The notes beneath the pieces are model-generated. The model worked only from the letters and a program-made list of their open reading frames with translations. It made no database searches and had not been told where the DNA came from. A DNA stretch of 64,000 nucleotides from Psychrobacter sp. TAE2020 (lineage in GTDB: Bacteria; Pseudomonadota; Gammaproteobacteria; Pseudomonadales; Moraxellaceae), in NCBI RefSeq assembly GCF_018919485.1, contig NZ_JAHLMU010000001.1, positions 2,692,048-2,756,047 of the forward strand. Reading direction: 5' to 3'. Made by a program: the position numbers and the translations under genes. The stretch's first letter is position 1. Each line of letters opens with the position of its first letter. This document shows, piece by piece, positions 57,808 through 63,402 of the stretch.

Positions 57808-57955
57808 AATATAATAGTTTATGGGTTGGACCAAGCTTGTGAGCCCTCCCCAAATTTCAAAAATATAATAGTTAATAAGTAGGCTGGGCGCAGCCTGTGA
57901 CCCCCAATAGTGATATTAGACAATGGAAACTTTTAACGGCTCCAATCTATAGGAA
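57808..57955. repeat. Two diverged REP-like units plus a remnant of a RAYT gene 3' end
   Basis: Two successive units of about 50 bp each begin AAAATATAATAGTT (near 57808 and 57860). The second contains a 30-bp palindromic element (57879-57908, starting GTAGGCTGGGCG and ending GACCCCCAAT) close to the copies at 61933 and 62540. The following 45 bp (to about 57955, including CCAATCTATAG) match the 3' end of the RAYT pseudogene at 61987 onward. So this is a degraded, non-autonomous copy of the same element. The 57719-58075 gap holds nothing else apart from the repeat at 58049. Confidence 0.75.
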
Positions 57956-61198: not shown

Positions 61199-61660
61199 AT
61201 GCTAAAAAAACTCTTTTTTTTGACAGTTATGTCAGGATTGTTCGCTGGTTGTGCTTCTGTACCTACAGAACAAGCTCATATTACTAGTACAATAAAACAG
61301 TTTAAGCCACCAGCGACTAATAATGCAGGTTTATATATCTATCGAAGTGCCAGCGTAGTAGGCGGAGCATTAAAGAAAGATATTTGGGTAGATGATAAGT
61401 GTATTGGCGAAACAGCAAAAGGAACTTTTTTCTATGAAGAAGTTTTAGGTAATGTCGAACATAAGGTTTCAACTGAATCGGAATTTTCTCCTAATGACTT
61501 AATGGTTCAGACTCAAGCCGGACAAAATTATTTTATTAAACAATATATTAAACCTGGCTTGTTGGTTGGGGGTGCGGGTCTAAAGTTAGTCTCAGAAGAA
61601 GAAGGGAAAAAAGCTATTAGCGATCTAAAATTAGGTATTAAAGGCAAATGTAGTAAGTAA
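61199..61660 (+). CDS. DUF2846 lipoprotein
   Basis: 153 residues. Lipobox FAGC (Cys18). The mature protein carries the DUF2846 pattern: NAGLYIYRSASVVGGALKKD, VDDKCIGETAKGTFFYEEV, GNVEHKVSTESEFSPNDL and AGQNYFIKQYIKPGLL. Two cysteines (DDKCIG, KGKCSK) may form a disulphide. Membrane-anchored, function unknown. Own terminator 45 bp downstream. Confidence 0.88.
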   Translation: MLKKLFFLTVMSGLFAGCASVPTEQAHITSTIKQFKPPATNNAGLYIYRSASVVGGALKKDIWVDDKCIGETAKGTFFYEEVLGNVEHKVSTESEFSPNDLMVQTQAGQNYFIKQYIKPGLLVGGAGLKLVSEEEGKKAISDLKLGIKGKCSK

Positions 61661-61704
61661 TAAGAAAATACTTGTTTGTTATCTTATTAAGTTTTATATG
61701 TTTG

Positions 61705-61737
61705 AAAAGGCATTAGCGTAATAGTTAATGCCTTTTT
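61705..61737 (+). terminator. Rho-independent terminator of the DUF2846 gene
   Basis: AAAAGGCATTA (61705-61715) pairs with TAATGCCTTTT (61726-61736) and runs on into T. Arms of 11 bp. Confidence 0.9.
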
Positions 61738-61932
61738 TATTAGCTTTTAATGTTAATTCCTTATTGTATCTACGATGATTTAGAAGTCCTTATATTATTA
61801 ACATAATATAAGGATTTCATTATTGCAACATACAGCTTTTTCACGAGGCAAAAGTTATAACGAAACAGATTTACCGCTACTTATTTATCCTTACCAATAC
61901 AACCAAGAATCTAAGTTAATATATCAATTGAC

Positions 61933-61962
61933 GTAGGTTGGGTGGAGCTTGCGACCCCCAAC
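61933..61962 (+). repeat. REP-like palindromic element, left copy
   Basis: A 30-bp palindrome-like unit beginning GTAGGTTGGGTG and ending GCGACCCCCAAC. Its inverse, with two differences, lies at 62540-62569. Together they flank the RAYT pseudogene. The 61661-61932 stretch before it holds the DUF2846 terminator and a short frame (about 61823-61933, ending SKLIYQLT) that stops inside this element; I cannot tell whether it is a truncated gene. Confidence 0.88.
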
Positions 61963-61986
61963 GAATATATTCAACAGTAAAAACCT

Positions 61987-62495
61987 TTAACCGCCCCAAT
62001 CTATAGTAAGCGAACCTTTCGCGACAAATCTATGGAATGAGGAATAAGGCCAGTCTTTTACATGCTCGACATAACCATGTTTTACAGGGGTACTGTTTTT
62101 AATAATAGCGGAATACAATTAATATGGGCGCGATAATCTCCTTTATCACGGATGCAATGCGGCCAAAATCGTCGTTGCCAAATACCGCGCTCTTCTTTTT
62201 TGCGTCGGCTATTGGAGATATATTCTGTTTTAGTAATATGATAAGAGAATTAATATTTGATTAATTTAATACGTATCGAGAAGTTAGCATCATCGTGTGG
62301 CATAGTACAAAGCATATGCAAATGATCTGGCAAGATTACGATAGCATCGATATGAAAAGGATGTTTTTGCTTTACGGTTTTAAAAGCATATCGAAGCGTT
62401 TCAATTTGCTTAATTAGTAAGTCGCTAGACCTATCAGCAAGGTTAATAGTGAAGAAATAGCTTGATCCTTGAATGTAGTGTCTTCGGTACTGCAT
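61987..62495 (-). pseudogene. REP-associated tyrosine transposase (RAYT), inactivated
   Basis: From the ATG at 62493-62495 the reverse strand reads MQYRRHYIQGSSYFFTINLADRSSDLL and IDAIVILPDHLHMLCTMP, the HUH-like Y1 transposase pattern. Ser-Ile-Arg-Ile-Lys-Leu-Ile-Lys-Tyr is followed by an in-frame TAA (62250-62252). The same frame continues as EERGIWQRRFWPHCIRDKGDY and then shifts near 62095 to NPVKHGY-like [21 protein letters not shown] and ends IDWGG-stop (61987-61989). A premature stop and a frameshift make it non-functional. It is flanked by inverted REP-like units, the usual partners of RAYTs. Confidence 0.88.
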
Positions 62496-62539
62496 GGTAT
62501 TCTGCAAGTGATGATTCAGAGTTTATCTTACGTTATGGT

Positions 62540-62569
62540 GTTGGGGGTCGCAAGCTCCGCCCAACTTAC
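62540..62569 (-). repeat. REP-like palindromic element, right copy
   Basis: Inverted relative to 61933-61962, starting GTTGGGGGTCGC on the given strand. The two copies agree at 28 of 30 positions, so the pair is a clear inverted flank of the RAYT pseudogene. Confidence 0.88.
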
Positions 62570-62600
62570 GGGTTCAACGTCAAATCATGATTAATGCAAG

Positions 62601-62630
62601 GTAGGTTGGTGTCGAGGTACGAGACCCAAC
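62601..62630 (+). repeat. REP-like element, second subtype
   Basis: 30 bp beginning GTAGGTTGGTGTCGAGG and ending ACCCAAC, the same length and ends as the first subtype but with a different centre (TCGAG.TACGA). A degraded copy in the same orientation lies at 63146-63175, on the far side of the zinc-ribbon gene. Confidence 0.7.
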
Positions 62631-62675
62631 GAAATAGTGTCGCTAATTAACTCTAAACCAACATAGGAGCAGATT

Positions 62676-63149
62676 ATGACTGAAAAACGATTTCAAGAAA
62701 GCTATGAAAATAGGATCTCTATTAGCATTCCTACCAATGATGATCCTACGCTAGTTATCTGTGCAAAGTGTCAATCAAAAGCTGTTGTTACTTTACATAA
62801 CGACGAGGCGAGGTTAACTTGTCCAATTTGCGGCTATAATCTAGCGAAAACAGCCGAAGAAAAAACATTTTATTGGGACGCAGAAAATCCAACGGACAGT
62901 TATTTTGGGGTAAATTTATGGTTGCAAACGGATTGCGTTGGGGAGAGTCTGTGGGTGTTCAATAAGCGTCACTTAGAATATTTAGAGAATTTTGTGTCAG
63001 TTAAACATCGGCAATGTAACCCAAATAATGAAACTTGGACGAATAGCTCACTAGCTAGCCGTTTACCTAAATGGCTTAAATCAGCTAAAAACCGTACGCA
63101 TATTTTAAAAGGGATTGAGGTTCTAAAATCTAAATATAACGATGCTTAG
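62676..63149 (+). CDS. Zinc-ribbon hypothetical protein
   Basis: 157 residues with a four-cysteine zinc ribbon (CAKC near residue 29-32, CPIC near 49-52), then a conserved C-terminal part: NLWLQTDCVGESLWVFNKRHLEYLENFVSVK and SSLASRLPKWLKSAKNRTHILKGIEVLK. This combination occurs in a widespread uncharacterised bacterial family. AGGAGCAGATT precedes the ATG. The stop codon (63147-63149) falls inside a REP-like unit, and another lies just upstream of the gene. Confidence 0.8.
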   Translation: MTEKRFQESYENRISISIPTNDDPTLVICAKCQSKAVVTLHNDEARLTCPICGYNLAKTAEEKTFYWDAENPTDSYFGVNLWLQTDCVGESLWVFNKRHLEYLENFVSVKHRQCNPNNETWTNSSLASRLPKWLKSAKNRTHILKGIEVLKSKYNDA

Positions 63150-63175
63150 GTTAGTGTCGAGATATGAGACTTAAT
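63146..63175 (+). repeat. Degraded REP-like element overlapping the zinc-ribbon stop codon
   Basis: The 30 bp starting TTAGGTTAGTGTCGAGA align with 62601-62630 at most positions (GTGTCGAG and GAGAC shared). The TAG at 63147-63149 that ends the zinc-ribbon gene is contained in it. Confidence 0.55.
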
Positions 63176-63184
63176 GAATAAATG

Positions 63185-63354
63185 TAGGAGCCAATACCGC
63201 TTTTCGCTCCTATCTTGGTCGCCTACTAGAGCGGTGACTAATAGCTAGTAGCGTTCCTGTTGCCTAGATAACGCTTCTAGCTGAGTCCCCACAATCTAGT
63301 GGTCAAACAAGGATAGCCGCCACAATCGGGGCTAAAAATCGCTCCAAGGCGACC
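63185..63354. other. Region with inverted repeats, possible small mobile element
   Basis: TAGGAGC (63185-63191) pairs with GCTCCTA (63206-63212), and GGTCGCC (63217-63223) pairs with GGCGACC (63348-63354). No coding frame. It resembles a palindromic non-coding element, but copies elsewhere in the window were not seen, so the nature is uncertain. Confidence 0.35.
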
Positions 63355-63402
63355 TTTAGCTGAAAATCATAAATATTTCTAAGGTCTGACCTGACTTTTA
63401 CA

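Follow-up and report, generated by a model that had tools for sequence, protein, structure and literature searches.

The block near the right end of the window belongs to a known kind of element and is dead. Very probably it is what remains of a REPtron, in which the gene for a REP-associated tyrosine transposase (RAYT) is framed by an outward-facing pair of its cognate REPs (REP-A) and has a second type of REP (REP-B) attached; this assessment includes the mechanism proposed below. The window is the whole 64,000-nucleotide stretch that was analysed, C1:2692048-2756047 of the 3.29-Mb genome of Psychrobacter sp. TAE2020 (33 contigs). From related units in sister species, we lean slightly towards the view that the REPtron of this family, clan 3, is an autonomous mobile element. 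It would jump with defined borders, both inside a species and from one species to another, CDI-type toxin/immunity arrays being among its targets, and the window would hold a dead copy.

Table 1. Features in and around the block (window coordinates unless prefixed C1)
Feature	Position	Strand	Remarks
Degenerate REP-A-like copy	57879..57908 (about)	+	7 mismatches in 31 nt; also C1:2749926-2750003
REP-A, left copy	61933..61962	+	GTAG end faces outward; on the 3′ side of the pseudogene
RAYT pseudogene, clan 3	61987..62495	-	NF047646 matches; alignment with 15 intact relatives
REP-A, right copy	62540..62569	-	tag GTAA outward; 5′ side of the gene
REP-B	62601..62631	+	about 31 nt beyond right REP-A, head to head with it
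Degenerate REP-B-like relic	63146..63176 (about)	+	9 mismatches in 35 nt; at 3′ end of ORF 62676-63149
Landmark	63147..63336	+	matched pieces 63147-63215 and 63310-63336; blastn and pattern search

The RAYT pseudogene and its REP pair

A reading of the sequence alone had proposed that the gene between the two REP-A units is a RAYT. This assignment is borne out by its N-terminal 85-aa fragment (62250-62507, minus strand), which passes the cut-off of the NCBIfam model NF047646, REP_Tyr_transpos (1.7e-25, 89.6 bits against a cut-off of 80). A C-terminal fragment within 61987-62118 (minus strand) matches the end of the same model weakly and below the cut-off (1.9e-4, 21.3 bits). The profile search thus did not refute the RAYT assignment. 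The Pfam model Y1_Tnp gave a sub-threshold match only, in the N-terminal fragment; in a genome-wide search with this model in which stops were read through, the RAYT region reached 24.4 bits (cut-off 23). The HuH motif is present as PDHLH, which aligns with H59 and H61 in both of the genome's intact RAYTs, and PDHLH or PDHIH is found in 15 of 15 intact clan-3 relatives.

The two lesions that had led to the gene being called dead hold up on closer alignment. The stop at 62250-62252 is real and falls at codon 82, and the supposed frameshift results from an insertion (net 14 nt, at about 62096-62110) that breaks the frame. Furthermore, a Cys codon (62115-62117) stands in place of the catalytic Tyr of the Y---NP motif, the class 2 signature of the Y1 family (PMC6006769); Tyr and NP are both kept in all 15 aligned intact clan-3 relatives, which are 161-164 aa long. 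Because of the Cys codon and the insertion, we regard the window RAYT as a dead member of its family and not an active one. Its DNA is 73-79% identical to that of the intact relatives, which differ to a similar degree between groups. Private changes, counted where the 15 intact relatives agree and with the insertion region left out, amount to 4/94, 4/125 and 3/22 at codon positions 1, 2 and 3, with 0-2 at position 2 in the intact relatives; in total, the intact gene of G056 exceeds the window copy (13 versus 11). These changes hint at relaxed constraint in the window RAYT and at a death that may not be very old.

A true IS200/IS605-family insertion sequence in place of a RAYT could have the unit-like borders and the two copies observed in one of the sister genomes (G044, see below), and weak IS200 profile matches were indeed obtained. 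We nevertheless consider this identity very unlikely and have rejected it on profile scores: with the IS200 model NF033573 (cut-off 55), the window fragment scores 18.3 bits and four intact proteins score 23-38 bits, the latter reaching 170-199 bits with NF047646 (cut-off 80). Two intact clan-3 relatives gave 27.8 and 23.4 bits. The GTAG hairpins at both ends and the clan-specific REPs also argue against it.

The two 30-nt units flanking the RAYT pseudogene had been described as inverted and different at two positions only, and direct comparison agrees with exactly this number. Taken one base further, the inverted arms 61932-61962 and 62540-62570 match at 29 of 31 positions; 29 matches is the best value for any inverted 31-mer in 61500-63000, whereas 200 dinucleotide shuffles averaged 22.1 and never exceeded 27. 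The gene is therefore framed by two inverted palindromes with tags at their outer ends, as in a REPtron, although the right-hand tag reads GTAA and not GTAG. In alignments with sister units from G066, G029 and G051, homology starts exactly at 61933, in the left REP-A. Hairpin folding, suggested as a check by the sequence-only reading, gave a divided answer. The window units fold weakly (−5.7 kcal/mol each, equalled by 12 of 200 shuffles each), whereas the form of REP-A usual in the genus folds better (−7.8 kcal/mol, equalled by 0 of 200 shuffles). In the genus form, GACACCC, the 8-bp stem is uninterrupted, while the form of the source genome is bulged and folds less well. GACCCCC near the 3′ end is found in 7 of the 8 REP-A copies of the source genome versus 7 of the 72 listed copies of 34 other REP-A-bearing genomes, the search pattern itself having been written with CCCCC.

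REP-B, its degenerate relic and the distant REP-A-like copy (Table 1) are additions to the earlier description. The relic lies at the end of an ORF for 157 aa that has weak zinc-ribbon matches; its relatives in sister species, most of them close to uvrA, are 69-76% identical. On the other side, a possible terminator separates the block from a DUF2846 gene: an inverted repeat of 16 nt with a 4-nt loop (61783-61818).

REP copies and the enzymes that serve them

A RAYT match at E <= 0.001 was obtained in 43 of 105 Psychrobacter genomes, and in 38 there is one over the cut-off. The 50 intact RAYT proteins cluster into four clans, and clan 3, to which the window belongs, is represented by 16 intact genes in 15 genomes. 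The best-fitting REP is that of the protein's own clan in 50 of 50 cases, and a REP of another clan within 7 mismatches was found in 0 of 50; the clan REP consensus sequences were drawn from the same 50 genes, so what carries weight is that cross-clan matches are missing. Own-clan REPs with no more than 3 mismatches are present on both flanks of 36 genes and on at least one flank of 44. For clan 3, REP-A is found at this threshold on both sides of 13/16 genes and on at least one side of 15/16. Clan 2 has the poorest fit (1/7 on both sides), partly because its REPs differ by insertions that are missed in an ungapped comparison. Near the 34 RAYTs of other clans there is no REP-A within 10 mismatches. 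Position and clan pattern together suggest that REP-A would be the substrate of the clan-3 RAYT. That the units are instead terminators or a general intergenic repeat, flanking an unrelated gene by chance, we regard as most improbable. Their inverted arrangement, their stem-loop-like character and their location outside ORFs could be explained in this way, but not their presence on both flanks of most intact clan-3 genes and their absence near the other clans; moreover, no Rfam family was found in 61500-63400.

The 30-nt unit does occur elsewhere in the source genome, as the sequence-only reading had supposed. REP-A has eight copies there with at most 3 mismatches (a reversed-pattern control gave 0), and none of the six copies elsewhere falls within an ORF of at least 70 aa, in keeping with cognate REPs dispersed between genes. 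REP-B has three copies at the same threshold and is present in 35 of the 105 genomes, the source genome included. It had also been argued that any present movement must depend on another RAYT copy. Two intact RAYTs do exist among the only three RAYT matches of this genome, but both belong to clan 4 and carry different REPs (GTAGGCTGGG...CCCAGC), and there is no other clan-3 member. For this reason, REP-A is probably orphaned and immobile in the source genome rather than served by another RAYT copy.

One of these clan-4 RAYTs (L001:884-1373, about 2273815-2274304 of C1) adjoins a type I restriction specificity fragment (PF01420). A 154-nt duplication lies nearby, as do long inverted clan-4 REP doublets, and the RAYT may have entered, or rearranged, a gene for restriction specificity.

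In the sister genomes, REP-A numbers range from 0 to 7 and those of carriers of an intact clan-3 gene from 0 to 5, flanking copies included; high REP copy numbers alongside an active RAYT are thus not a property of clan-3 carriers. Across these genomes, no correlation was seen between REP-A number and the presence of an intact clan-3 RAYT, and G006 has seven copies without any clan-3 RAYT. This genome also contains an inverted REP-A pair (L118:6610-6892, 253 nt from start to start); a deleted RAYT inside it was considered and rejected, the interior giving matches of at most 10 nt only.

REP-A and REP-B also occur as tail-to-tail doublets. In ten genomes chosen for having A and B listed close together, the doublets span 77-79 nt in nine (92 nt in G052) and fold as one hairpin in nine, the exception being G017. 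The doublet of the source genome (C1:1452840-1452916) looks old, since parts of its flanks are common to the doublets of G098, G055 and G052.

Clan-3 units in sister species

In nine species, an intact clan-3 unit (A-RAYT-A-B) occupies the same side of thrE as in the window, with matching order and orientation, and uvrA is seen beyond it in seven of them, the contig ending first in G018 and G051. The window block aligns with those of G029 and G051 from 61933, the first base of GTAG, to 62632 with about 74% identity. Clan-3 REPtrons measure about 630 bp (A/RAYT/A); where REP-B and a third REP are included, the length is about 700-743 bp. In a count covering 39 loci, thrE and uvrA are present without an intervening clan-3 RAYT of at least 60 aa at eight (L105, L106, L110, L112-L115 and L122). 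A diverged clan-3 gene of G056 lies 4.8 kb from thrE with REP-B on its other side. Units at other locations were found in G097, G081, G044 (two), G028 (one intact, two with a stop) and G078, and broken units in G030, G077 and G096. CDI-type genes carrying DUF637, PT-VENN or haemagglutinin repeats surround those of G044, G028 and G097, and those of G081 and G077 adjoin SUKH-family genes. Plasmid-borne clan-3 RAYTs were not convincing, all 26 matching records having less than 60% identity.

The conserved location next to thrE is what would be expected of an ordinary, vertically inherited REPtron that was lost by mutation in the window, the high similarity of the RAYTs in the nine species being due to homologous recombination across the thrE-uvrA interval and not to movement of the unit. 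RAYTs have been published as single-copy, vertically inherited genes (PMC8049555), and no clean empty site for a clan-3 unit was found among the matches listed. We think this possible but rather doubtful in view of the following observations. The two 630-bp units of G044 lie in one contig and are 99.84% identical (1 nt), while their adjoining flanks are without homology. In the sister genomes, clan 3 is thus confined neither to a single copy nor to one location, although it is single-copy in the source genome. Most alignments of units from different loci begin and end within about 10 bases of the REP ends; the exceptions are G044a-G081 (30 bases beyond), G028a-G097 (past the right end), some that stop short of the REP ends, and G028a/b, where a longer duplication includes an IS110 copy.

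The same borders appear at the thrE location itself. Over 21 pairs from the seven of the nine species that have a homologous left flank, mean identity steps up from 0.79 and 0.76 on the left to 0.97 across REP-A and 0.95 across the gene, then drops through 0.90 (A-B-C) to 0.48 on the right. Vertical descent would not predict such steps at the REP borders. It is likewise at odds with the silent sites. At four-fold sites of the nine species, 162 of 1737 pairwise comparisons differ in the RAYT versus 1519 of 4152 in thrE, and the RAYT is the less diverged in 36/36 pairs (narrowest for G018-G029, 0.16 versus 0.17), a ratio that is not to be read as a probability since the pairs share history and are non-independent. 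Four-fold divergence is also lower than in uvrA in 15 of 15 pairs of six species. As amino-acid divergence of the RAYT equals or exceeds that of thrE in 24 of the 36 pairs, the low silent divergence points to recent spread and not to purifying selection. The host tree derived from thrE has weak deep support, and no conclusions are built on it.

Finally, the landmark, which lies to the right of the unit in the window, is found directly to the left of it in G029, as two colinear pieces, and the second piece is also on the left in G051. This reversal of sides is difficult to reconcile with an undisturbed vertical history. An intergenic motif within the landmark (63311-63336) is exact in 17 of 299 loci, all of them from the source genome, G029 or G051.

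These data argue that the clan-3 unit probably moves as a whole. Rearrangement or recombination may mimic movement, however, because the thrE-uvrA interval is hypervariable, and an array rearrangement is possible in G044, where the two copies bracket duplicated CDI segments.

Among individual loci, the arrangement in G044 (L097:5069-9949) is composite-like: two near-identical direct REPtrons bracket two orphan CDI-type modules, which consist of DUF637 proteins with small following genes. In G028 (L099:5150-11448), a 325-aa ORF occurs three times beside clan-3 units a and b, and the one that was scanned is of the IS110 family; as the REP-A copies at this locus read CAAG and not GTAG, IS110 may use the REP as a target. 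Among the matches listed, there was no empty site for the G078 copy. G063 was considered as an empty site for the second G044 copy and rejected: its match starts at the unit border, but its left side is unrelated and the sequence also weakly matches a second place in the same fragment, so that we take it for a dispersed intergenic repeat.

A model and its relation to known systems

In the mechanism that we propose, a live clan-3 protein would act as a Y1 HuH single-strand nuclease that recognizes GTAG-tagged hairpins on single-stranded DNA, nicks beside them through its Tyr and re-joins the DNA elsewhere. Its products would be REP-A spread alone or as the REP-A/REP-B hairpin doublet and, probably, spread of the whole unit. 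With its premature stop, its frame-breaking insertion and no catalytic Tyr codon, the window copy is now incapable of this, and the leftover REP-A copies, without a cognate enzyme in the genome, would be expected only to decay. The rarity of REP-A in the source and sister genomes, the failure of its number to track an intact clan-3 RAYT and the poor hairpins of the window units are counterpoints to this explanation.

The clan-3 units bear on whether RAYTs are domesticated and housekeeping-like or still able to move themselves. Excerpts of PMC2817692, PMC8266576 and PMC6006769 report no evidence of RAYT mobility, the second with regard to tnpAREP, and a search of titles and the beginnings of abstracts, in a collection with few subscription journals, returned nothing on mobility of RAYT units. 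The corresponding search for RAYTs in Psychrobacter, of the same coverage, returned nothing on RAYTs either, and the name of the genus is absent from the main text of PMC3733652, PMC2817692 and PMC6006769. Since one RAYT clan of this genus has units that are duplicated, differ in position, end sharply at the REPs and are younger than the neighbouring genes, Psychrobacter would make the mobility question directly testable. If the clan-3 REPtron is autonomous, RAYTs would not be purely domesticated transposases.

Like known REPtrons, in which a RAYT (TnpAREP, class 2 of the Y1 family) with HuH and Y---NP motifs is framed by two inverted GTAG hairpins, the clan-3 element has clan-specific REPs (PMC2817692, PMC6006769), and like the E. 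coli rayT with its Y and Z2 REPs it combines two REP types at one locus (PMC2817692, PMC6006769). It differs in that the gene is dead in the window and that REP-A is present in only eight copies, compared with 37-427 perfect REP copies per genome in the genomes reported in PMC2817692. Sister species add a further difference: there, the unit occurs more than once in a genome, is found at altered positions and is of more recent age than thrE; the silent-site result in the nine species is the opposite of that described in 2010 in PMC2817692. We consider it slightly better than even that the clan-3 family of Psychrobacter is a variant in which the whole REPtron moves.

The A/B doublets resemble REPINs in having inverted REPs, a short spacer and one hairpin, which is not true of the window block with its head-to-head A and B; unlike REPINs, they are hetero-doublets of two REP types and low in copy number. 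With the IS200/IS605 family, the clan-3 unit shares the Y1 HuH transposase, the unit borders and the occurrence of more than one copy in a genome (G044), whereas its protein is below the IS200 cut-off and well over that for RAYTs, and its ends are GTAG REPs.

Another parallel is a model proposed in 2013, in which a pseudogenized RAYT leaves its cognate REPs to decay (PMC3686654); the same article records that some strains carry a RAYT at a new place in the chromosome. That work concerned strains of the Pseudomonas fluorescens complex and Stenotrophomonas and not Psychrobacter. The state it predicts, an inactivated RAYT with its cognate REPs remaining and decaying, is that of the window, which thus provides a natural case of RAYT death with the REPs left behind, the starting state of the decay model (PMC3686654).
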